Origin: Planctomycetes bacterium syqfu
GTDB taxonomy: Bacteria > Planctomycetota > Phycisphaerae > Phycisphaerales > Phycisphaeraceae
Direction of reading: 5' to 3'
Assembly (NCBI GenBank): GCA_020974905.1
Contig: CP087563.1
Coordinates: 6,324,001 to 6,388,000 of the forward strand
DNA: 64,000 bases
Both the position numbers and the translations under genes were made by a program. Position 1 is the first letter of the stretch. Each line of letters opens with the position of its first letter. Shown here piece after piece: positions 49,889 to 63,063 of the stretch. The notes beneath the pieces are model-generated. The model searched no databases. It had not been told where the DNA came from and saw only the letters and a program-made list of their open reading frames with translations.

Positions 49889-51817
49889 TTACGACGACTG
49901 CGTGCCTGAGGTGTTAGGCAACTTCTCCGGCATTTGTTGTCCGACGGGGAATAAGCCGATGGCAACGAAGATCAGTTGGCTGATGCAGAACCCGATGAGC
50001 CACATGAATGCGCCGTCCATAAAACCGTAGCTGTGCAGGCCGACACCCATCATGTTCACGCCGAACCAACTGAAAGCGGTGATGCAGTTGCCCAGGATCG
50101 CCATCATCATCATCCCGCGAATCTGCACCATGCCAGACCAACGGGCGTGGAGGATCGCAGCATTCCAAAGCACGATGAGCAGGGCACCATTTTCCTTGGG
50201 GTCCCATCCCCAGAAGCGTCCCCACGATTGGTCCGCCCAGATACCGCCAAGCACGGTGCCGACGAAGGAAAAGAGCATTGCAAAGCAGATAATGCCATAG
50301 ACCATGCGTCCCATGCGTGCGTAGCTTTGCTTGTTGAGGTTTCGCAGAATCACATCACGAACGACGAAGATCAACCCCAGCGAACCAGCAACAAACATCG
50401 ACGAATACCCCAGCGTGACAATAAGCACATGCGTGGTCAGCCAGAAGTTGGAGTCGAGCACCGCACGCACCGGCTCGATGGTGTCACCGCTGAGTGATAA
50501 GTGATGGGCGATGATGAGCGTTGAAAAACCGATTAGACAGGCAGCGATATTGCCAAGCCCGTTCTTGTAAATCTTCTCAAGGACCATGGCCATAATCGTT
50601 GCACCCCAGCCGATGAACACCGCTGAGCCGTAAAGGTTGATCACGGGCGGGCGTCCTTCGATCCACATCCGCCAACCCAGACCAAACGTGTGTGTCGCGA
50701 TGGCAGCAAGCACGATCACAGTGCCGGTGATCATCATCCAACGGGTTTTGAACATCATGGCAACGAGTGTGACCACCAACCCCAGCGCGTAGATCGGCAT
50801 GGCGTTGACCAGCAAAGCCATGCGGTTAAACATCGCTTCACTGCGGACCTTGGATTGCTGTTGAGCAGGCGTTGCAAGATGCTCGGCAACCATCGTGTTG
50901 ATCGTCTGCCAATCACCTTCGCGATAGGCTTTGCGAATGGTTGCCATACGAATCACCGAGTCATCCATCGGCAGGCCCAGCAGGACCAAACGCATATGCT
51001 CACCAATACGACTCCATTCCAACTCGCCGATGGGAGGGACGAAATGGATGTTGCTTTTCTGAGCAAGATTCTCGTAACCCTTCTTGAGAATGTTGATATG
51101 CGAGACCATGTCATCGGTGAGTTTGTCCGGATCTGCAATCAGACTCTTGACGAGGTTTGCGGCTTCCTGGGCTTGCCGGGCAAAGTCCTTGCTTTGCTCG
51201 GGTGCGATGGCATTTTTCAGTCGGACATAGGTCGTGATGTGGTTATACAGTTCAATGATCGCACGCTGATAGCGATTGCGCTGATGAGCCTGAACACTCT
51301 GGGCTTCATTGGCTTGGGCGGAGATCAATTGCAGATGCGGGATCAGTTCGGTGAAACTCCAACGCTTGTCTTCTTCGCCAAGTTGTAACAATGCCTGGAT
51401 ATCCGGATCGTGAATCAGAAAGACGCGGTAGTTGTCCGCGACTTCCGGTTTGCACATCACCTGCATGAGCCATTCCAACGCATGCATGGACTTGCCTTCG
51501 ACTTTGACGGACTGCTTACCACAGATCATGAGCATGCTTGAACGGGCCACGGTATCCAATGGCTTAAGTCGGCCGGCATGCATCACCGCGATCTGTCCCA
51601 ACGCGTTCCAATCCGGCGTTGCGTTGGTTGCAGGTTGTTTGGATTCCTGTGCAAAGATGGATGTGGTCATCAAAGCGATCAACAGACAAAATGCGATCAG
51701 GCAATGAGCAGCGGATGTGAATCCGGTGCAGGGATGGCTGTGAAGTGTCGCTGAGGAACTTGCACTGGATTGATATCGGGTGCTTTGGGGTCGAGATGGG
51801 CGGATTGAATTGTTCAT
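49889..51817 (-). CDS. ccsA: System II cytochrome c assembly protein CcsA/ResC, long form
   Basis: A 642-residue protein from an ATG with GGAGG upstream. An N-terminal helix or signal (about 35-58) is followed by a large soluble part (about 60-350) opening with MHAGRLKPLDTVARSS, then about eight membrane helices. The haem-handling WWD motif is WGRFWGWDPKENGALL with conserved His residues nearby (THVLIVTLGYSS, HHLSLSG). With ResB it exports haem and ligates it to CxxCH motifs of periplasmic cytochromes. Its ATG overlaps the resB stop (ATGA), so translation is coupled. The long soluble N-terminus is more than is found in Bacillus ResC. It supplies haem attachment for the cytochromes encoded just upstream. 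Confidence 0.93.
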   Translation of the reverse strand: MNNSIRPSRPQSTRYQSSASSSATLHSHPCTGFTSAAHCLIAFCLLIALMTTSIFAQESKQPATNATPDWNALGQIAVMHAGRLKPLDTVARSSMLMICGKQSVKVEGKSMHALEWLMQVMCKPEVADNYRVFLIHDPDIQALLQLGEEDKRWSFTELIPHLQLISAQANEAQSVQAHQRNRYQRAIIELYNHITTYVRLKNAIAPEQSKDFARQAQEAANLVKSLIADPDKLTDDMVSHINILKKGYENLAQKSNIHFVPPIGELEWSRIGEHMRLVLLGLPMDDSVIRMATIRKAYREGDWQTINTMVAEHLATPAQQQSKVRSEAMFNRMALLVNAMPIYALGLVVTLVAMMFKTRWMMITGTVIVLAAIATHTFGLGWRMWIEGRPPVINLYGSAVFIGWGATIMAMVLEKIYKNGLGNIAACLIGFSTLIIAHHLSLSGDTIEPVRAVLDSNFWLTTHVLIVTLGYSSMFVAGSLGLIFVVRDVILRNLNKQSYARMGRMVYGIICFAMLFSFVGTVLGGIWADQSWGRFWGWDPKENGALLIVLWNAAILHARWSGMVQIRGMMMMAILGNCITAFSWFGVNMMGVGLHSYGFMDGAFMWLIGFCISQLIFVAIGLFPVGQQMPEKLPNTSGTQSS

Positions 51818-52977
51818 GCCTTGACCTCCGTGTCCTGCTTGACGAACTTGTTGAAAAACTTGAGGAAGTGAGCGATGAAATGCCAACTCATGCCCAGCGT
51901 GACGAGGATGCATGCGATGTAGGGGAGCACCGCTGCGGGGTTGCGTACCACCTGGAGAATGGTGGTTTGATCGTCGTTGGCAAAGCTGGCTTGGTAGAAC
52001 GTCTTGCCGTCATATCGCAGCGGTTGGTTCATGCTGATGGTCAACTCGCGGTCTTCATGTTGAATGGGATCGACCAAACGTAGTCGGCTTGAGAATGCCA
52101 TGGGGACATTGGTGCCGGTGAAGCGTTCGTGCTTGAACTCCTGGAGTTTAAGCGTCATGGGCATCATGTATCGCTTGGCGCGGAGATGGATGGCATATTC
52201 CCTGCCGTTGATTTCAATGAAGTCAGGATTCACGAATGCTGAGGAGAGCAGCCACGTTCCCAGGTTCTTGCCGTTGGCAATGATGTCCACATAGACACAT
52301 GCCAGATTGCGTTGTTGATCACCCTTGACCGGCGGGGCGGGTTGGACGATGACACGTTGACCAAAGCCCTGCGTCGGACGTGGGTTTTCCCCCATGGCAA
52401 TATTGGCGTTGGGCATGAACTCCTTAACGGAGATCGACACCGGGAGGCGCGGGTCGGTGATCATATTGCCGGTGACCAGTTTGCTTGCCGGGATGCTGTA
52501 AACCGTCTGCGTGTCCTTGGGATTGTCGTTGGCATCTTTGTTTGAGGTGTCGATGATCACCAGTTCATTTTTGTGGAAACTCTCGGAGTAATTCTTGACC
52601 TGCCCGTGATCCAGTGAGACATAACTTTCCACGGAGTAGAGGTCGGTAAAGAGTTGGCCGATGAGCAGCATGAGAATGCCCGAATGCATAAGCAGAACAC
52701 CCATGCGTTTGGTGGTCCACTTGAATGTGGTCAGATAGGCACACAGCAGGTTGAGTACCATGATGATGCCCAACGTGTATCCGCCGGGGAGGACAGGGAT
52801 CGCGGTCCCGTTCTGTAGATAGATCGGGACGACGAAGGATTGAAAGTAGATTTTCTGCGCTTCACGGATGGGCATGTGCGTCTGGGCCAGCGTGCCGGCA
52901 AAGACAAGCATCATGCCTGCGATAAGCACCACGACGGTGATGCGCAGTGAGGCAAACTTTTTGAGTATTTTTTTCAT
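51814..52977 (-). CDS. resB: System II cytochrome c assembly protein ResB (CcsB)
   Basis: A 387-residue protein. Helices near residues 12-32, 60-80 and 88-108, then a large periplasmic domain, and a last helix near 345-370. FASLRITVVVLIAGMMLVFA, MHSGILMLLIGQLFTDLYSV and YDGKTFYQASFANDD match the ResB pattern; His in LLMHSGIL is a likely haem contact. ResB and CcsA together form the synthase that joins haem to apocytochromes. Overlaps ccsA by four bases. Confidence 0.92.
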   Translation of the reverse strand: MKKILKKFASLRITVVVLIAGMMLVFAGTLAQTHMPIREAQKIYFQSFVVPIYLQNGTAIPVLPGGYTLGIIMVLNLLCAYLTTFKWTTKRMGVLLMHSGILMLLIGQLFTDLYSVESYVSLDHGQVKNYSESFHKNELVIIDTSNKDANDNPKDTQTVYSIPASKLVTGNMITDPRLPVSISVKEFMPNANIAMGENPRPTQGFGQRVIVQPAPPVKGDQQRNLACVYVDIIANGKNLGTWLLSSAFVNPDFIEINGREYAIHLRAKRYMMPMTLKLQEFKHERFTGTNVPMAFSSRLRLVDPIQHEDRELTISMNQPLRYDGKTFYQASFANDDQTTILQVVRNPAAVLPYIACILVTLGMSWHFIAHFLKFFNKFVKQDTEVKA

Positions 52978-53077
52978 GTGCGAGCCAACTCGGATCAAAC
53001 ATCGTGGAATCACTCACAAAGGCGTTTTAGCAACAGAGCATCCGTGCCCTTTGCCTCTGCGTTGAACTTCAAATTGT

Positions 53078-53716
53078 TTATTGCCAGTTCACGGTTTTGA
53101 GGAACTGGTCAAACTTGGGCAGGGCGGTCTGGACTTGATCCGACGTGCCTGTGAGTTTGATAAACCATGTCTTGCCATCGACCATACCGAAGCTCACGAC
53201 CATGCGTTGCGAGTCGTTTGCGATATCCACGCGATTGGCATCAATCGGGCCGATTTTGTCCTGCTCGATGGAAGACTGTAATTGGTCTTGAGTCAGGGGA
53301 CCTAATCCGAGTTGGCGGCGCCAGCGTGCGACGTTGGCCGCAACACCACCGACATCACCGGGAAATGCTGAGACGTTTACGTCCGCGCCCGATGCCGTTT
53401 GATAGCTATGCAGAATCATCGAGCCTGGTTGCGTTTGTTGCCAACCTTCGGGAAGTTCGACGGTGAACTTCCCGGAGATGGTTGATGCGCTGTTGTCTGC
53501 TGCAGCAGGTTCAGACGCATGCATGGCATGGTCATGACCCGAGTGATCCTGACCGTCATTGGGATCATGGGCGGTGTTTGAAGCAATCGCCGGTTGCGGT
53601 GCTTCGTAGACTTCGATTTCCTCTTCACCACATCCGCCGAGAATGCAGAGACTGCAAACCAGCATGGATGATGTGAAACCAGACGTGCAGCGGACAAAGC
53701 GGGGCAGGTGATTCAT
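53078..53716 (-). CDS. His-rich lipoprotein of unknown function
   Basis: A 212-residue lipoprotein: the signal peptide ends in the lipobox LGGC-G at about residue 29. A linker with many His and Asp (DPNDGQDHSGHDHAMHASE) could bind metal. The C-terminal domain (about 85-212) has ISGKFTVELPEGWQQTQPG and WFIKLTG, a small beta-rich fold like that of exported proteins of unknown function that precede or follow cytochrome genes. It lies 19 bases after the globin gene on the same strand and belongs to the electron-transfer cluster by position. Confidence 0.8.
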   Translation of the reverse strand: MNHLPRFVRCTSGFTSSMLVCSLCILGGCGEEEIEVYEAPQPAIASNTAHDPNDGQDHSGHDHAMHASEPAAADNSASTISGKFTVELPEGWQQTQPGSMILHSYQTASGADVNVSAFPGDVGGVAANVARWRRQLGLGPLTQDQLQSSIEQDKIGPIDANRVDIANDSQRMVVSFGMVDGKTWFIKLTGTSDQVQTALPKFDQFLKTVNWQ

Positions 53717-53734: not shown

Positions 53735-54181
53735 TCACGCTGTGTTCTTGAGGTGTTCATCTGCTGCGCCGATCATCACCGAAGCCAGCGTGGTGTACGT
53801 CACCGTCCAGGCTTCTTTGACTTCATCGTTCCACGCGTCACCCAATCCTTGTTCCAAAGTCTTAAGCAGCGCAGCACCAACTGTATCATACATGGGAGCT
53901 GTCACTTTGTAATCCAAATGACGCACGCCCGAAGCCTGGACAGCAGGCACAATGCTCTCAAGATTTTTAAGTCCGTTGACAGCAGTTCCGAGCATGGCCA
54001 TGAGCTTTTTCTTCTGCTCGGTCATGTCCTCGGGGAAGATGGCTCGCAGCGATGGATCCATTTCAAAAAGGTTGCTGTAGAACAAATCCGCAGCGGTGTT
54101 GACGATGGGGACCACCTGGGCCCATGTCCCTTGAACGAGTTCGATTTGCTTGGGAGTCACTTGGCTTTCCTTACGATTCAT
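53735..54181 (-). CDS. Single-domain bacterial globin
   Basis: A 148-residue globin resembling the haem domain of flavohaemoglobins and Vitreoscilla haemoglobin. The proximal His is H88 in SGVRHLDYKV; Q56 in MTEQKKKLM takes the E7 place and Y35 in LFYSNLF the B10 place, a pair often found in globins handling NO or O2. IFPEDMTEQ and GLGDAWNDEVKEAW are family blocks. No reductase domain is fused. Within this cluster it may carry or detoxify NO or O2, an inference from position. Confidence 0.93.
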   Translation of the reverse strand: MNRKESQVTPKQIELVQGTWAQVVPIVNTAADLFYSNLFEMDPSLRAIFPEDMTEQKKKLMAMLGTAVNGLKNLESIVPAVQASGVRHLDYKVTAPMYDTVGAALLKTLEQGLGDAWNDEVKEAWTVTYTTLASVMIGAADEHLKNTA

Positions 54182-54253: not shown

Positions 54254-54676
54254 CTATTCTTCTTCGGGTAGTAAACTCAAAATGTAATCCAATCCCTGGG
54301 CTACCTGTTCATCGGTCAGATCCTTGCCGCGTCTGCCGCCCTTGGGCATCATGTCCCCATAACCTTCAATGGCATGCTTGAGCAGGGTCTCACGGCCACG
54401 TTTATCCAGACGCTGACGCCACTCTTTGGGGTTATTGATCACCGGTGCATACTCGCTTTCAATGTGACAGTGACTGCAAACTTTGGCGAAGACTTCATAA
54501 CCAGTCAGTAATGCAGGGGCCGTCGGTTTGGGAAATTCAGCATGGTCATGCGCCTCGGTGGGGGCGGATTGCGTGGTTGTTTCGCTTTGCGGTTTTTTGT
54601 CGCAGGCTCCCAAAAGCACACAGCTCAACATCATCAAAGCATATTGGCGGCAATGAAACATGGTACGAATCTCCAT
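54254..54676 (-). CDS. Monohaem cytochrome c5-type lipoprotein
   Basis: About 140 residues. A lipoprotein signal ends in LLGAC. The haem site is C-S-H-C-H in FAKVCSHCHIESEYAPV and the axial Met is in MMPKGG, followed by the TDEQVAQGLDYILSL helix, the layout of cytochrome c5/class I. It would carry single electrons between the large cytochrome and a partner at the membrane surface. AAGGAAAG precedes the ATG at 54676. It follows the DUF3365-like gene by 40 bases. Confidence 0.88.
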   Translation of the reverse strand: MEIRTMFHCRQYALMMLSCVLLGACDKKPQSETTTQSAPTEAHDHAEFPKPTAPALLTGYEVFAKVCSHCHIESEYAPVINNPKEWRQRLDKRGRETLLKHAIEGYGDMMPKGGRRGKDLTDEQVAQGLDYILSLLPEEE

Positions 54677-54716
54677 GTAGACTTTCCTTGATCTATGACA
54701 AGGTTTGCGATTCGGA

Positions 54717-55361
54717 TTACATCGGGATGCGAATGACAATCCCGCCCATCACGTCATCGGGCTTAAAGTCCGTCTTGGGGGAGTCCACGTGATTGTTATG
54801 ACAATCCCAACATGCCTTGGCGGTTGCACGGTCGGGATACATGGCAACGAAAAACTTTTCACTGCCAACCGTTTCTTCACCGTAAACAGGCTTGCCGGTA
54901 TCTTCCATGATCTTGATTTTTTCTTTTTCAAAATCCGTGTCGGGCATGTGCTTCTTGTTGATAGCCCATGAACTGATCAGGCCGTACTCAAAGTTCTGGT
55001 TGTTGCGGTAGGCTTCTTCCGAACCATATCGGAACTGCTGAGCAGGGAGTGGCAAGGTCGCGAAGGTGGTTTCCCAGTCTTCTGAGCCTTTGAATTTCTT
55101 GTGTGTCTTGCCGTCTTCCTCAAGCACCTGGATGTTCTGGGTTTTGGTCAGTCGGTTGACGACGTTTTTGACGTAGATTTTACGGTCCGCTGCCATGACA
55201 GCATGGAGCATGTCCACGACTTTCTGATGTTCGACACCTGCTGGTGCTGCGGCGGAGGCTTCGGATTTACCACAGCCGGTCATGAGCAGCGTGGTGCCCA
55301 GACCCATCGTGCAGATCGTGAGTGTCAAAGCGATTCTGGTTTTTGTAAACAAGCGTGACAT
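54717..55361 (-). CDS. DUF3365/Tll0287-like haem lipoprotein
   Basis: A 214-residue protein. The signal ends in the lipobox LLMTGC-G. The rest has the Tll0287-like (DUF3365) sensor layout, a PAS-like fold with ATLPLPAQQFRYGSEEAYR in the middle and the haem motif ACWDCHNNHVDSPKTDFK near the C-terminus, ending in DDVMGGIVIRIPM. In other bacteria this domain is found alone or before signalling domains and binds one c-type haem that may sense redox state or gas ligands. Here it is outside the membrane without a signalling domain. Confidence 0.85.
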   Translation of the reverse strand: MSRLFTKTRIALTLTICTMGLGTTLLMTGCGKSEASAAAPAGVEHQKVVDMLHAVMAADRKIYVKNVVNRLTKTQNIQVLEEDGKTHKKFKGSEDWETTFATLPLPAQQFRYGSEEAYRNNQNFEYGLISSWAINKKHMPDTDFEKEKIKIMEDTGKPVYGEETVGSEKFFVAMYPDRATAKACWDCHNNHVDSPKTDFKPDDVMGGIVIRIPM

Positions 55362-55528: not shown

Positions 55529-56971
55529 TTAGTGCTTGTTTTTCTCCTTATGTTCAAGATTCATTTTCTGTTTGAGCATGTCGAAACTGCTGGGTTCGTG
55601 ATGTTTACCAACCGGTTGATCACTGAAGTTCTTGTCGATGAGTTTGCGGTCAGCCAGGGCATCAATCGCAAAGGGCAGGCCATGGCATTGCATGCACACC
55701 GGTCGGAGCATTTTTTCGTTGGGTCGCAGGAAGTCGTTCTGGTTATGCATCACGGATGTCTGTGTCTTGCCTTCGACTTTCTGCTGTACGCGTGGCAGGT
55801 GACAGGTGGCACAGGACACACCCGAACCTGCATCGCCAACGCCTGCAATCTCATCAAGCCATGCATCATGGTGCGCCGAGTTCTTGAAGTTAAGTGTGTG
55901 TTCGTCCGCATGACATTGCATGCACGCGCTCATGGCAGCGAACTGCGTGTCAAAACTGTGTGCTGAGTGACAACTGTTACAGGTCATCTGCAAGTCTCTA
56001 GCGGTGTCAAGCATCGGCAGTCTTGCCATCCCCGGCGTCATCGGGCTTAATCCCTGATCCAATCGCATGCCATGTCGCGAACCTAAAAAGCCGTGGACTT
56101 CATCCTTGTGGCAGGTCTTGCATGATGCGTAACCGGGGTTGTCTTTCCAGATGAGATTGCCTGTCGTTTCGTCTTTGACTTTGTGACAGTCGGTGCAGTT
56201 GACACCTGCTGCTGCATGGGCGGTGTCCTGCCAGGCAATGAACTGGTTGTTCTCGAGTTTGACATCGCGTGGCGCGTCGGCCGTTGCCATGGTGAGTTTG
56301 ATGATCGTCTTGCCCTGGTCTTTAACCCACTGCTGATGTCGCTGAGCAAAATCGCGCATGGGGACACGTGCCTGCTCGGCTGCGACGTTGGGTTTTTCGT
56401 GCATGTGGTCTTTGAGATGCTGCTCAAAAAGCCCTGAATTATCGTGGAAATTGTGACATCCCGCTGCAAGACAGGTTGAGAAAGCCAACCCCTCATGCGT
56501 GACGCGGTTTTCCTGAATGTCCTCGTGACAGGCCTTGCAGTAGTTCTCCGGCTGAGTGAGTCCCATGCCACCCTTGGTTGCAGCCAGTCCATCGGAACGA
56601 TGCTCCACGTGACAGGTGATGCAGTACCGCGACTTAACCAATGCGGTGTTGGCACGCATGTCCATCGGCAGGAGCTTAAGCGCATCGGTGGACTTGGCGA
56701 ACTTGGCGATCGGGTGCGAATCACCCACACGCTCCAGTTCCTCGCCATGACACGAAATGCAGGCTTCCTGTTTGACCATGTCGTTTCCTTCGTCGTGACA
56801 GGCTGAGCATTGAAGCTCAATCTGGTAGTGGCCATACGTGGTCTGGCCTGGCAGAAACAGTTGTTGCTGCGGACCCTTGATCGCGTGAAACAGATAGCCT
56901 CCAGCCATTGCTGTCCCCAGTAACCAGAGCACCCATATCAAACCGTTTCTCACGCGACGCGAATCCTTCAC
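55529..56971 (-). CDS. Membrane-anchored multihaem cytochrome c with 11 haem motifs
   Basis: A 480-residue protein with an N-terminal anchor helix (about 9-30). Haem motifs: CxxCH at C55, C71, C117, C145, C259, C284, C331, C350, C387 and C426, plus CLAAGCH (CX4CH) at C167, eleven in all. The first four and the CX4CH form one group, the others a second group after a loop of about 85 residues, so two domains are likely. No CxxCK is present, so a NrfA-type active site is not seen; many extra His could be axial ligands. It should accept electrons from the membrane fusion upstream and pass them to small cytochromes or an unknown substrate. Resemblance to haem-rich nitrogen-cycle cytochromes is general, not specific. 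Confidence 0.93.
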   Translation of the reverse strand: MKDSRRVRNGLIWVLWLLGTAMAGGYLFHAIKGPQQQLFLPGQTTYGHYQIELQCSACHDEGNDMVKQEACISCHGEELERVGDSHPIAKFAKSTDALKLLPMDMRANTALVKSRYCITCHVEHRSDGLAATKGGMGLTQPENYCKACHEDIQENRVTHEGLAFSTCLAAGCHNFHDNSGLFEQHLKDHMHEKPNVAAEQARVPMRDFAQRHQQWVKDQGKTIIKLTMATADAPRDVKLENNQFIAWQDTAHAAAGVNCTDCHKVKDETTGNLIWKDNPGYASCKTCHKDEVHGFLGSRHGMRLDQGLSPMTPGMARLPMLDTARDLQMTCNSCHSAHSFDTQFAAMSACMQCHADEHTLNFKNSAHHDAWLDEIAGVGDAGSGVSCATCHLPRVQQKVEGKTQTSVMHNQNDFLRPNEKMLRPVCMQCHGLPFAIDALADRKLIDKNFSDQPVGKHHEPSSFDMLKQKMNLEHKEKNKH

Positions 56972-57120: not shown

Positions 57121-59169
57121 TCAAAAGTAGTAAACACTGACAATGTGAAATCCCACCAGTACGGGCAATGGCCAGAACAACAGCAGGTGTGCCCAGGTCA
57201 ACACCGGGCGCCATCGACGCGCCAGGTCACCCACGCGACCTTCCAATCGAGACTCCAGTGCGGTTGCGATCCCGGCGATGGCGCCCAGCACGTTGAGTCC
57301 CAGAAAACAGAGCATCAACAGGAAGTTGAGATTCTCCCCCATGCGCATGCCGGTATGCACCACCAGTCCTGCGATGCAGAGCAGTCCCATGGCAGTGTGA
57401 AACACGCGGTAGTAGCCGTAGTTGCCCAGCTTGCTGAGCCACTTGATGCGTTTACGCAGAGATAACACCATGCCGAGTATGGCAATGCCAAGTAGCGTAA
57501 AACCGGTCGCCTGTCGGATAAAGCCGATGCGCCAGATTTGATCGATTTGGTACCATGCGGATTCAAAATTATCCGTAAAATTCAGTGGTTTTTGCGTCAT
57601 CATGCCAATCACCACACAGGCGATGACTGCCAGGATACACACCACGGTGAGTGTTTTGCGACCTGCGATTGGTTGGGCGGATGTCAGGTCCCCGGTGAGT
57701 TGCGCCAGTAACGGTTGACATGATCCGCAGACGGTTCCTGCACCGGTGCATTTTCCCAATGCTGCGACGGTGCACACCCCCTCAGAGACGGCGAGTGACA
57801 GTGAACCTTTGGAGACTTTAAGGCAGTTACAGACCAGTCGTTCGTCGGGCCAATCGTGGACACTTTGAAGTTGTCGACTGCCAAAGACATTGCCGGTGAT
57901 TTCGAAACGTTTGAGTTGTCGCGTGGTCAATCGCTGCTGTGTTTCGATGGCATGTTGCACTTGTGAGAGTTCGTCCCAATCGCCCACGATTTTTGCAGCC
58001 ACCAGTCGGTCACCTTGCATGGTGATCGCGCGGTAGAGGCCCTTGGCAGACCACGTTCGGATATTGCCTTCGATGTCATCACGCCCGAAGCTGGCAACGG
58101 TATGGCCCATGAGTTTAAGACGCGTCGAACGGTCGCCGGATTCAAACGCAGCGTCGGGCATGGTGGTCAGATGGTTGGCCAAGGTTCTGGCCATGTCGTA
58201 ACCCGGGCCGACCAGGCCGTAGACAATCCCCCGATGCGAAGCACATTCGCCGATGGCAAAGATATTCGGATCACTGACGGACTGGAGTTGATCGTTGACG
58301 ATGATCCCGCCACGCGTAGCCAACTCCAACTCAGCAGACTCAGCCAATTCATCACGTGGGCGAATCCCCGCAGCAATGATCACCATGTCGACCGCCAGTT
58401 GTTCATCATCATTGAGTGACAGCAGAAAACTTTCATCCACGGGGAGAATCTGTTTGGTTGCTGTGTTGATGCGAACATGAAGGCCGTCAGCAATGAGTTT
58501 TTCACGCAGCACGTCACTGCTGGGACCGTCCAACTGTCGGGGCATGAGTTGGGTTGCGACTTCAATGAGGTGTACCCGCAGGCCGAGTTGCATCAGTGCT
58601 GCAGCGGCTTCAATACCCAGCAGTCCGCCGCCGATGACGGCTGCGGCGTGTTTGGTCCTGGCTTTGCCTGCAATGGTTTTCAGGTCGTCGATGGTTCGGT
58701 ACACATCAACATCCGGCTCGTTACTGCCGGGGATGGGGGGGATAAACGGTCGGGAACCGGTTGCGAGGATGAGCTTGTCGTAGGCGAGCGTTTTGCCGGT
58801 GTCAGTGATGACAACCTGTTGACGGCGGTCAATGGTGGTCACCTTGTTGCCCGTGAGCAGGGTGATGTCACGTTCCTGATACCAGGCGCGATTCGCCAGC
58901 AGCAGGGCATCAGGCGACTGCTCCTTGAGAAAGTCCGTCAGGTGTACACGGTCGTAAGCAGGATAAGGTTCTTCGCCAATGACGGTGATATCGTACTGGC
59001 CGGTGTGCACCAGCTTGGAGAGCTGGTCGCAGAAGGCGTAGCTGACCATGCCGTTGCCGACAATGACCAGTCGCGTGGCAGGCTGGGTGGCCACGGCATC
59101 CGCGCCGGACTGAGGTGCACTGTTGGCATCCTTTTGCTTGACCTGGTTGTCCGTGACCGTCACGTCCAT
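57121..59169 (-). CDS. NirB-like FAD/[2Fe-2S] module fused to a dihaem membrane domain
   Basis: A 682-residue fusion. Residues 30-420 are the pyridine-nucleotide-disulfide oxidoreductase fold of NirB: VIVGNGMVSYAFC for FAD (38-40 GxG), IGGGLLGIEAAAAL for NAD(P)H, FAIGECASHRG near the end. A Bfd-type [2Fe-2S] domain follows with C447, C449, C481 and C484, spacing CxC-x31-CxxC as in bacterioferritin-associated ferredoxin. The siroheme/[4Fe-4S] half of NirB is missing. Instead there are five helices (about 505-524, 546-571, 586-607, 613-638, 655-679). Helices 3 and 5 each carry H-x13-H (H591/H605 and H661/H675), the bis-His layout of the two b haems in NADPH oxidases and ferric reductases. A GTG six bases upstream is an alternative start. 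I infer NAD(P)H oxidation inside and electron delivery to periplasmic cytochromes. Confidence 0.9.
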   Translation of the reverse strand: MDVTVTDNQVKQKDANSAPQSGADAVATQPATRLVIVGNGMVSYAFCDQLSKLVHTGQYDITVIGEEPYPAYDRVHLTDFLKEQSPDALLLANRAWYQERDITLLTGNKVTTIDRRQQVVITDTGKTLAYDKLILATGSRPFIPPIPGSNEPDVDVYRTIDDLKTIAGKARTKHAAAVIGGGLLGIEAAAALMQLGLRVHLIEVATQLMPRQLDGPSSDVLREKLIADGLHVRINTATKQILPVDESFLLSLNDDEQLAVDMVIIAAGIRPRDELAESAELELATRGGIIVNDQLQSVSDPNIFAIGECASHRGIVYGLVGPGYDMARTLANHLTTMPDAAFESGDRSTRLKLMGHTVASFGRDDIEGNIRTWSAKGLYRAITMQGDRLVAAKIVGDWDELSQVQHAIETQQRLTTRQLKRFEITGNVFGSRQLQSVHDWPDERLVCNCLKVSKGSLSLAVSEGVCTVAALGKCTGAGTVCGSCQPLLAQLTGDLTSAQPIAGRKTLTVVCILAVIACVVIGMMTQKPLNFTDNFESAWYQIDQIWRIGFIRQATGFTLLGIAILGMVLSLRKRIKWLSKLGNYGYYRVFHTAMGLLCIAGLVVHTGMRMGENLNFLLMLCFLGLNVLGAIAGIATALESRLEGRVGDLARRWRPVLTWAHLLLFWPLPVLVGFHIVSVYYF

Positions 59170-59220
59170 GCGCACCTATCGCTTTACCGCTATCCATGAT
59201 TGGTAACGGCATTGAAAATC

Positions 59221-60649: not shown

Positions 60650-61489
60650 TTAAGCTTCATTTCTTGCTTCGCGTCGGAAGCGGCCGGGGGGGATGCCGTA
60701 GTTTTGTTTGAAGGCACGGTTGAAGTGATAGGGGCTTTGCATGCCAACCTTATTGGCGATGATCTCGGTGGTCTGATCCGTGGTCAACAGTAAATGTCGC
60801 GCTTGTTCCAGGCGTTGTTGTTGAAGTAACTGTCGGAACGAGTGGCCAAAGAGTTGGCGGACCAGGTGACTGGTGCGCGAGACTGACAGGAAAAGCGTCG
60901 ATGCCAAATCTTCCAACGTCGAATCGTCGCAGGCATGGTCGCGCAGCCAACGGGTGATCTGACTTTTTCGGTCACTTGGCTGAGCCTGCGACTGACAGGC
61001 TGCAATCCGAGCGAGCATGCCCTGGCCCATCACCTTGAGCATGCGCCCGCAACTATCCAGCCATGCCGGGTCCGCCAATCTGAGTTTGCGGTAAGCCTGC
61101 TCCCAGCGTGGATCGATCGGCAGCTGCGGATCAGGTAAACGGAACTGGCCTGCGAAAATCGTAGCCACATGCTGCTGATCAATATGGAGTCCAACCGCCA
61201 CTTCCATGACCTGCTTCCAGCAACAGTGTTTGAGCGGTTCGCTGCGTTTGGACACCTGCCGATTGACATGCCCCATGCAGTGATCAATGCAGCGGTGATC
61301 GTGGACGATCTGACAGACCGGCCTGCGATGTCGCCGACGGATGATGTTCAATAACGACTTGCCTTGCGAATCGACAAACGCCTGCTTCAGATCATGCACT
61401 GCGATGGACACCCCAAGCAGGGCTTCAGTGTCGCGAAAGGTCTGCTCGAGTTCCTGGGCAAGTTGGGATTGGGTCGCATGCTTGGACAT
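60650..61489 (-). CDS. AraC-family regulator with PocR-type sensor domain
   Basis: A 279-residue regulator. Residues about 8-165 are a PocR-like ligand domain with its typical Cys/His set (RRPVCQIVHDHRCIDHCMGH, LKHCCWKQV) and VGLHIDQQHVATIFAGQF. The C-terminal 100 residues are a two-helix-turn-helix AraC domain, with LEDLASTLFLSVSRTSHLVR and VGMQSPYHFNRAFKQNYGIP. PocR domains sense small organic molecules such as propanediol-type compounds in known cases. It is divergent from the FAD-dependent oxidoreductase at 61636, its most likely target. The 146-base gap between them should hold the operator, which I could not identify. Confidence 0.9.
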   Translation of the reverse strand: MSKHATQSQLAQELEQTFRDTEALLGVSIAVHDLKQAFVDSQGKSLLNIIRRRHRRPVCQIVHDHRCIDHCMGHVNRQVSKRSEPLKHCCWKQVMEVAVGLHIDQQHVATIFAGQFRLPDPQLPIDPRWEQAYRKLRLADPAWLDSCGRMLKVMGQGMLARIAACQSQAQPSDRKSQITRWLRDHACDDSTLEDLASTLFLSVSRTSHLVRQLFGHSFRQLLQQQRLEQARHLLLTTDQTTEIIANKVGMQSPYHFNRAFKQNYGIPPGRFRREARNEA

Positions 61490-61635
61490 ATCCTTATTAT
61501 CCCCGTTGGCTTAAAAACAGCAACTCAGGGCAAGAAACCGGCATCCCGTAGCATGGCTTTTCGACTTATCTAAGGATACAGTTTTACACCTATCCCAACC
61601 ACACTGAATTTTTATCCAACACGGAGACATATGTG

Positions 61636-63063
61636 ATGTCTGAATCGACCTTCTCAGTCAATTTCCCCACCGAACTTCCCGTGAAACACACCGCGGATGT
61701 CATCGTCATCGGCGGTGGTCCCGGCGGTATCGGTGCAGCCGTCTCCGCAGCACGCGGTGGGGCGGATGTTCTGCTCGTGGAACACTACGGCTTCCTCGGT
61801 GGCATGGCGACCGCTGGTGAAGTCAACCCCTTCATGCCCAATCACCACGACGGCAAATCGCTGGACACCGGTATCTTCACCGAGTGGCTTGATCGCATGG
61901 GAACCTACGGCGGACGCTTGGGGGACTCCCGTGTTTTTGATCCCGGTGCAGCACGCCTGGCAGCAGAAGACCTCTGCGTCGAAGCGGGGGTCCGTCTGCT
62001 TTACCATCACCGCGTGGCACACGTCGAAACCGCGGACAAAAAAATCACCGGCATTGTCTTGCACTCCAAGTCCGGACTCACCGCTGCCAAAGCCAAGCAG
62101 TACATCGACTCCACCGGTGACGGTGACCTGGCTGCCCTGGCGGGTTGCGAATTTAAGTTCGGCTCTGAAGACACCGGCTTTGCCCAGCCGATGACCATGT
62201 GCTTCAAACTCAAGCTCAGTGAAAAAGCTCGTCCCGCAGATGTCACCAACGGTGACCTTTTCCAGAACATGATGAAGGATCAATACGACCTGATTCAGGA
62301 AGTCTACAAAAAGGCGCAGGCTGATGGTCGCATTGAGTGCCCGCGAGAAAACGTGCTCATGTTCCGTGGCGTGGATCGTGATGTTGTTCACTTCAATACC
62401 ACCCGCGTCATCAAGCATGATGCAACCAATGGCGATTCACTGTCCGAAGCCGAAGTCCTGGCACGCAAGCAGATCCGCCAACTCGTCAAGGTACTCAGTG
62501 AAGAAGTTCCGGCATTCAAGGACTGTCAACTTTACTCCATCGCCCCGCAGATCGGTATCCGTGAGTCCCGCCGCATCATGGGCCGCGACTTTGTCACCAC
62601 GCAGGATTACATGGACGGTCGCACTTATGCCGACGGCATTGCCCGTGTGACCTATCCCATCGACATTCACAACCCCAATGGTACCGGCACAGTCCTGCTC
62701 CACTTCCCCAAGGAAGCCTGGATGGAAGTCCCGTTCGGCTGCCTGCTTCCCAAGGATATTGACAACTTGGGTATTGGCGCTCGCTGCATCAGTGTCGATC
62801 ACGCGGTGCACTCGGCGGTGCGCGTCATGCCCCCGGTGGTCTCACTCGGTCAAGCCATCGGCACCGCCGCCGCCATGGCCGTCAAGGCCGGCAAAGATAT
62901 TTGCCAGGTCCAAGGTGCTGCCGTCAAGGAAGAACTTATCAAGCAGGGACGCAACCTTGTCCCGTTTGATCCTGAAAAACAAACCACCGCGACCTACACC
63001 GACGAACAGCGCGCCCAGATCGCAGAGGTCTGCGAAAAACGTGCAGGCCGATTCAGTGCTTAA
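61636..63063 (+). CDS. FAD-dependent oxidoreductase (FAD_oxidored family)
   Basis: A 475-residue flavoprotein. VIVIGGGPGGIGAAVSAARG and LLVEHYGFLGGMATAGEVNP are the FAD-binding and family-specific blocks; YIDSTGDGDLAALAGCEFK and GIRESRRIMG follow at the places expected. Many planctomycete genomes carry large numbers of these proteins, with unknown substrates that may be sugars or polyols. CGGAGAC lies upstream of the ATG at 61636. It is controlled most likely by the divergent AraC/PocR regulator. A strong terminator follows. Confidence 0.9.
   Translation: MSESTFSVNFPTELPVKHTADVIVIGGGPGGIGAAVSAARGGADVLLVEHYGFLGGMATAGEVNPFMPNHHDGKSLDTGIFTEWLDRMGTYGGRLGDSRVFDPGAARLAAEDLCVEAGVRLLYHHRVAHVETADKKITGIVLHSKSGLTAAKAKQYIDSTGDGDLAALAGCEFKFGSEDTGFAQPMTMCFKLKLSEKARPADVTNGDLFQNMMKDQYDLIQEVYKKAQADGRIECPRENVLMFRGVDRDVVHFNTTRVIKHDATNGDSLSEAEVLARKQIRQLVKVLSEEVPAFKDCQLYSIAPQIGIRESRRIMGRDFVTTQDYMDGRTYADGIARVTYPIDIHNPNGTGTVLLHFPKEAWMEVPFGCLLPKDIDNLGIGARCISVDHAVHSAVRVMPPVVSLGQAIGTAAAMAVKAGKDICQVQGAAVKEELIKQGRNLVPFDPEKQTTATYTDEQRAQIAEVCEKRAGRFSA

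Follow-up and report, generated by a model that had tools for sequence, protein, structure and literature searches.

A NirB-type flavoprotein fused to a putative dihaem membrane domain and encoded beside an 11-haem cytochrome: a probable NADH-to-periplasm electron conduit

We analyzed a 64,000-nucleotide stretch of the genome of Planctomycetes bacterium syqfu (contig CP087563.1, positions 6,324,001 to 6,388,000), referred to here as the window. It contains a gene for a fusion protein, a gene for a multihaem c-type cytochrome, and a run of redox and cytochrome c maturation genes on the same strand (Table 1). The fusion gene has its stop codon at 57121 and starts either with GTG at 59175 (684 aa) or with ATG at 59169 (682 aa). 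Residue numbers in this work follow the GTG start and are two higher than those of a preliminary description of this DNA, which counted from the ATG.

Table 1. Features of the fusion gene and its neighbors, in window coordinates
Feature	Position	Strand	Remarks
Fusion gene: NirB-type FAD/NADH, Bfd and five-helix putative dihaem membrane domains	57121..59175	-	684 aa, single polypeptide
Pyr_redox_2 FAD/NAD(P)H domain	58234..59073	-	residues 35-314; Pfam, above cut-off
Bfd [2Fe-2S] domain (Fer2_BFD)	57700..57837	-	residues 447-492; Pfam, above cut-off
Five-helix membrane domain	57124..57657	-	residues 507-684
Helix 3, H593-x13-H607	57355..57399	-	present in 46/46 homologues
Helix 5, H663-x13-H677	57145..57189	-	present in 46/46 homologues
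N-terminally anchored c-type cytochrome, 11 haem sites (10 CxxCH + C167-x4-C172-H173)	55529..56971	-	directly downstream of the fusion gene
Tll0287-like single-haem lipoprotein (PF11845)	54717..55361	-	39/42 loci
Mono-haem cytochrome c, probable lipoprotein	54254..54739	-	13/42 loci
Single-domain globin (PF00042), signal peptide not evident	53735..54181	-	24/42 loci
Lipoprotein-like protein of no family	53078..53716	-	kept within the same genus
ResB-like cytochrome c maturation protein	51814..53013	-	
CcsA/CcsB-like cytochrome c assembly protein	49889..51913	-	

The N-terminal part of the fusion protein is NirB-like. Between the two domains listed in Table 1, Pfam placed a Rubredoxin_C-like domain at residues 350-413, also above cut-off, and the ligands of the Bfd cluster read C449-N-C451-x31-C483-x2-C486. 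The NCBIfam NirB model (TIGR02374) matched at 456.8 bits, against 578 needed, and a Pfam search of the protein found no match to PF01077 (NIR_SIR). Since the NirB profile covers only model positions 1-478 of 794, the sirohaem half is absent from the fusion. This agrees with the preliminary description, which had recognized a NirB-like FAD/NADH and Bfd module with x31 spacing and had noted the missing half. The window protein has a glutamate where the second strand of the NAD fold ends, and most members have Glu or Asp there, which suggests from sequence that the substrate and electron donor is NADH. The last 170 residues match no Pfam family above cut-off. Hydropathy delimited five segments past residue 500, with H593/H607 in the third and H663/H677 in the fifth, so the previously described arrangement, five membrane helices of which the third and fifth carry H-x13-H, was recovered; the protein ends seven residues beyond H677. 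The predicted structure of residues 431-684, spanning the Bfd and membrane parts, was fair (pLDDT 80.6, pTM 0.71). The membrane domain had no sequence relatives in the PDB.

Homologues of the fusion occur in Planctomycetota and Gammaproteobacteria, at identities of 29-93%. Five copies were present among 61 related genomes, 14 loci came from scanning bacterial and archaeal genomes, and wider searches added more. Carriers accounted for about 27 of the 369 sampled genomes (~7%) of one gammaproteobacterial class and about 10 of the 198 genomes of one planctomycete class, with several planctomycete families represented. A viral origin was rejected, as viral contigs held no related locus. The preliminary description had named homologues with non-conserved membrane histidines as evidence that would count against its reading; a check for such homologues found none. 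H593, H607, H663 and H677 are invariant in all 46, and they are kept even where the cytosolic domain is swapped. Also invariant in the 46 are G558, G609, G613, L620 and G631, while W589, which forms the W-x3 before the first HX13H, is kept in 43 and an RKR between helices 2 and 3 is conserved. Every member with a complete FAD/Bfd region has the C-x-C-x31-C-x2-C spacing. This constancy, together with both H-x13-H pairs in 46/46 homologues, indicates that the pattern is not due to chance.

Across the two phyla, 41 of 42 loci have the 11-haem cytochrome gene next to the fusion gene; the remaining one, L118, encodes a fusion of another kind, described below. Thirty-nine of the 41 cytochrome homologues share the pattern of ten CxxCH and one Cx4CH, including the unusual C-x4-CH haem motif at residues 167-173 of the window cytochrome. 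One homologue (L128) has eleven CxxCH, the Cx4CH being replaced by CxxCH. At L014:10141-11226, the cytochrome gene seems interrupted, with four CxxCH in frame, which may reflect a frameshift or an assembly error. Eleven further histidines in the cytochrome are invariant or nearly so, enough second ligands for bis-His coordination of all haems. The predicted structure of the cytochrome was poor (pLDDT 53.8), and a fold search with this low-confidence model came back empty.

The cytosolic input of the membrane domain varies. GPP34 takes the place of FAD/Bfd in three loci (L018:3305-4501, L019:9074-10282 and L116:8465-9733), with the membrane domain and 11-haem cytochrome unchanged. GPP34 (Golgi phosphoprotein 3) has no known redox cofactor, leaving electron entry in these proteins unexplained. 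One genome (G529) encodes both the GPP34 and the NirB-type kinds. At L118:7264-9921, a protein of 886 aa combines two cyclic-nucleotide-binding domains, Bfd and an FNR-type FAD/NAD domain with a C-terminal putative dihaem membrane domain, and no 11-haem cytochrome gene was found nearby. Distant planctomycete relatives have 4Fe-4S/FAD domains or a separate cNMP/4Fe-4S protein, with neighboring cytochromes of 6 or 11 CxxCH; at L038:1-2193 and L045, 4Fe-4S and thioredoxin-reductase-like FAD domains are fused to a related double-HX13H membrane domain beside an 11-CxxCH cytochrome. As the input domains differ and the rest stays, what is constant is the putative dihaem membrane domain and, usually, a multihaem cytochrome, in line with the five-helix HX13H inner-membrane proteins that He et al. 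2017 reported next to such cytochromes. The earlier view that the fusion was independently assembled holds insofar as the membrane domain has relatives with GPP34, FNR-type and 4Fe-4S/FAD inputs, but for the NirB-type fusion a single origin, tested against NirB, was neither rejected nor demonstrated (p-AU 0.254).

Further genes of the locus recur to different degrees (Table 1), and in the genus of the window organism the cluster extends into genes for cytochrome c maturation (ResB and CcsA). The stand-alone Tll0287-type protein characterized to date is a redox protein with Cys/His ligation whose NO binding is not strong. Unlike characterized stand-alone members, the Tll0287-like lipoproteins of the window and 38 other loci have no conserved Cys outside CxxCH, so their sixth haem ligand may differ. 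Upstream of the cluster, and conserved in the same genus, an AraC-type regulator with a PocR sensor domain lies beside an FAD_oxidored protein (60650-61489 and 61633-63063). A porin gene belongs to PCC3/PCC4 clusters proper, compared below; here, porin-like genes (Alginate_exp, FadL) appeared in a few loci only, in a non-systematic tally.

Several lines of genomic context link the system to nitrate assimilation. In 17 of the 42 loci, nitrate-assimilation genes lie within ~9 kb, comprising NrtABC (transporter genes called by the NtrCD model, above cut-off), NasA-like molybdoenzymes, NirA and ANTAR regulators. Genome-wide, a nitrate-type binding protein of the NMT1_2 family (PF13379, which also includes bicarbonate-type proteins) was found in 24 of 27 carriers versus 82 of 342 non-carriers in the gammaproteobacterial sample (Fisher p 1.7e-11, ancestry ignored), and in 5 of 5 carriers versus 8 of 56 other genomes among the window organism's own relatives (p 2e-4, shared ancestry ignored). 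Against the link, the nitrate-type transporter and binding-protein genes of the own genome lie ~1 Mb from the window. The nearby genes and the genome-wide co-occurrence make an N-oxide role for the system likely, though short of proof; nitrate or nitrite assimilation is the most probable use of the conduit proposed below, at slightly less than even odds. Replacement of the sirohaem nitrite reductase (NirB/NirA) was ruled out, as NIR_SIR enzymes are kept in 43 of 45 carriers; nitrite reduction thus does not depend on the conduit, and the system is an addition.

We consider it probable that the fusion protein and the adjacent 11-haem cytochrome form a transmembrane conduit from NADH to the periplasmic cytochrome. 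The domain make-up, the invariant ligands, the conserved gene pair and the genome-wide link to nitrate-type transport are present in the sequences, and from there we infer haem occupancy, electron order, an outward direction and a final acceptor. The preliminary description had already suggested that two b haems lead electrons from NAD(P)H across the membrane to the periplasm; the invariant histidines and the adjoining 11-haem cytochrome, of which it had made no use, strengthen that reading at the level of sequence. With the N-terminal domains cytosolic, and a loop between helices 2 and 3 whose RKR is consistent with the cytosolic side, H593/H663 would lie at the inner face and H607/H677 at the outer face of the membrane. 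In the cytosol, NADH would reduce FAD, which would pass electrons to the [2Fe-2S] cluster of the Bfd domain and from there to an inner-face b haem held by H593 and H663. An outer-face b haem held by H607 and H677 would receive them next and hand them to the periplasmic 11-haem c-type cytochrome with its membrane anchor. From there, electrons would likely pass on to, or end at, the Tll0287-like haem lipoprotein and the small cytochrome c, and the conduit might be used, for example, for nitrite or NO removal in the periplasm alongside the cytosolic globin.

Well-studied routes to periplasmic multihaem cytochromes pass through quinol (e.g. CbcL and ImcH in Geobacter). If the proposed conduit is real, this family moves electrons from NADH straight to such cytochromes via one polypeptide. 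More tentatively, and with considerable doubt, the family may represent a widespread NADH-driven, quinone-bypassing system that feeds a periplasmic 11-haem cytochrome for nitrite/NO reduction in nitrate assimilation; it would then be one among several arrangements that supply a common dihaem domain from NirB-type, FNR-type, 4Fe-4S/FAD or GPP34 inputs. The family also points to a so far undescribed accessory to nitrate assimilation in bacteria, which is testable in culturable marine species.

As a sub-case of the conduit, the 11-haem cytochrome could itself be the terminal enzyme and use electrons from NADH to reduce nitrite, NO or hydroxylamine in the periplasm. Among solved structures, its profile matched octahaem nitrite reductases and NrfA best (E 1.8e-10 and 5e-9), and the nitrate gene context is in keeping with such an enzyme. 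The matches, however, are short stretches around the haem motifs, none of the 41 cytochrome homologues has a catalytic CxxCK haem site, and the 11 extra conserved histidines could occupy every distal position. Because CxxCH occurs in some known NrfA, the absence of CxxCK alone is not exclusive; combined with sufficient bis-His ligands, it suggests a wire rather than an obvious catalyst, and we regard a terminal enzyme as rather unlikely.

It is unlikely that the membrane domain is instead a quinone-active cytochrome b, making the fusion an NADH:quinone or quinol-linked enzyme and not a direct wire. Quinone activity has been proposed for the HX13H inner-membrane proteins found beside multihaem cytochromes (He et al. 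2017, PMC5566968), and Foldseek and VIA-align with the Bfd and membrane model showed a generic likeness to the four-helix bundles of cytochromes b6 and b561. These matches reached Z ~9, a level common for helical bundles, and ranked below talin and other helical bundles; the listed matches were generic bundles only, with no NOX, STEAP or MsrQ among them. A quinone site is not identifiable from sequence, and the covalent NADH/FAD/[2Fe-2S] input makes quinol input needless. Still harder to sustain, and in our view improbable, is an inward flow in which periplasmic donors reduce the cytochrome and NADH is made or a cytosolic acceptor, such as the globin, is fed. Relatives in PCC3/PCC4 have been proposed to function in Fe(II) oxidation, and the globin is cytosolic, but the genomic links point to nitrate assimilation, a reductive pathway, and reducing NAD+ at the potentials typical of multihaem cytochromes is an uphill reaction. 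That the membrane part is an ordinary anchor on a NirB-like protein, its H-x13-H pairs binding no haem, might be read from the lost sirohaem half and a membrane part without a Pfam family above cut-off, but it is hardly credible given four membrane histidines that do not vary among homologues of 29-93% identity from two phyla or when the cytosolic domain is swapped, and a near-obligate cytochrome neighbor.

We compared the proposed NADH-to-periplasm conduit with known systems. A literature search, short of most subscription papers, returned no report of a NirB-type fusion with a dihaem membrane domain. With NirB (TIGR02374), the large subunit of NADH-dependent nitrite reductase, the fusion shares FAD/NADH, Rubredoxin_C-like and Bfd domains in identical order, but it has a five-helix putative dihaem membrane domain in place of the NIR_SIR half; a NirB from a carrier genome was 34% identical to the window protein over 483 aa, with the alignment ending at the Bfd domain. 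Ferric reductases and NADPH oxidases, which form the FRD superfamily (PF01794; Zhang et al. 2013, PMC3591440), likewise have two His pairs on helices 3 and 5 and a path from NAD(P)H through FAD to haems. Their FAD domain is C-terminal and FNR-type, whereas that of the fusion is N-terminal and NirB-type (Pyr_redox_2) with a [2Fe-2S] relay, and a multihaem cytochrome is the probable recipient of the electrons of the fusion. Ferric reductase domains, cytochrome b and HX13H inner-membrane proteins (for the last, PMC5566968) all carry H-x13-H on alternating helices. The earlier label "NOX-like" is therefore apt for the haem geometry and the His pairs, but it does not extend to family membership: Pfam Ferric_reduct (PF01794) scored 13.8-18.3 bits on the membrane domains against a cut-off of 28, and DUF4405 (PF14358) matched more members, 11 of 15, weakly and likewise below cut-off (15.3 bits for the window protein against a cut-off of 26.7). 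DUF4405 proteins are, in the accessible part of the source (PMC11334425), six-helix membrane cytochromes with conserved His, of which one member has been shown to bind haem b; that part describes no dehydrogenase fusion of the present type.

In Bradyrhizobium japonicum, the nitrate-assimilation cluster narK-bjgb-flp-nasC likewise combines a flavoprotein with a single-domain globin. There, the NAD(P)H flavoprotein Flp and the single-domain haemoglobin Bjgb can protect from NO, and the available portion of that work (PMC4724949) describes neither a membrane domain nor a multihaem cytochrome. CbcL of Geobacter sulfurreducens is a bc-type inner-membrane cytochrome complex that passes electrons to periplasmic cytochromes (PMC12307469). 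Its input is menaquinol, whereas that of the fusion would be NADH, with the multihaem cytochrome encoded by a separate gene.

The nearest described relatives are the DUF4405 cytochromes and the five-helix HX13H inner-membrane proteins (IMPs), which adjoin multihaem cytochromes in PCC3/PCC4 and other clusters (He et al. 2017, PMC5566968). Like the fusion, IMPs of the PCC3/PCC4 type have five helices, HX13H on helices 3 and 5, an adjacent multihaem cytochrome c gene, and W-x3 before the first HX13H (43/46 homologues here). In addition, planctomycete proteins of the IMP kind (L024, L026 and L038) gave weak but significant matches to the fusion-family profile. The two differ in that IMPs have an SGXXG motif on helix 4 where the window protein has GxxxG, and WX3H before both His pairs where the window protein has it on helix 3 only. 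IMPs (~300 aa in PCC3) have no described dehydrogenase of this type and are proposed to be quinone-linked, whereas here NADH/FAD/Bfd domains are fused to the membrane part. The fusion is a variant of the known pair of HX13H membrane protein and multihaem cytochrome.
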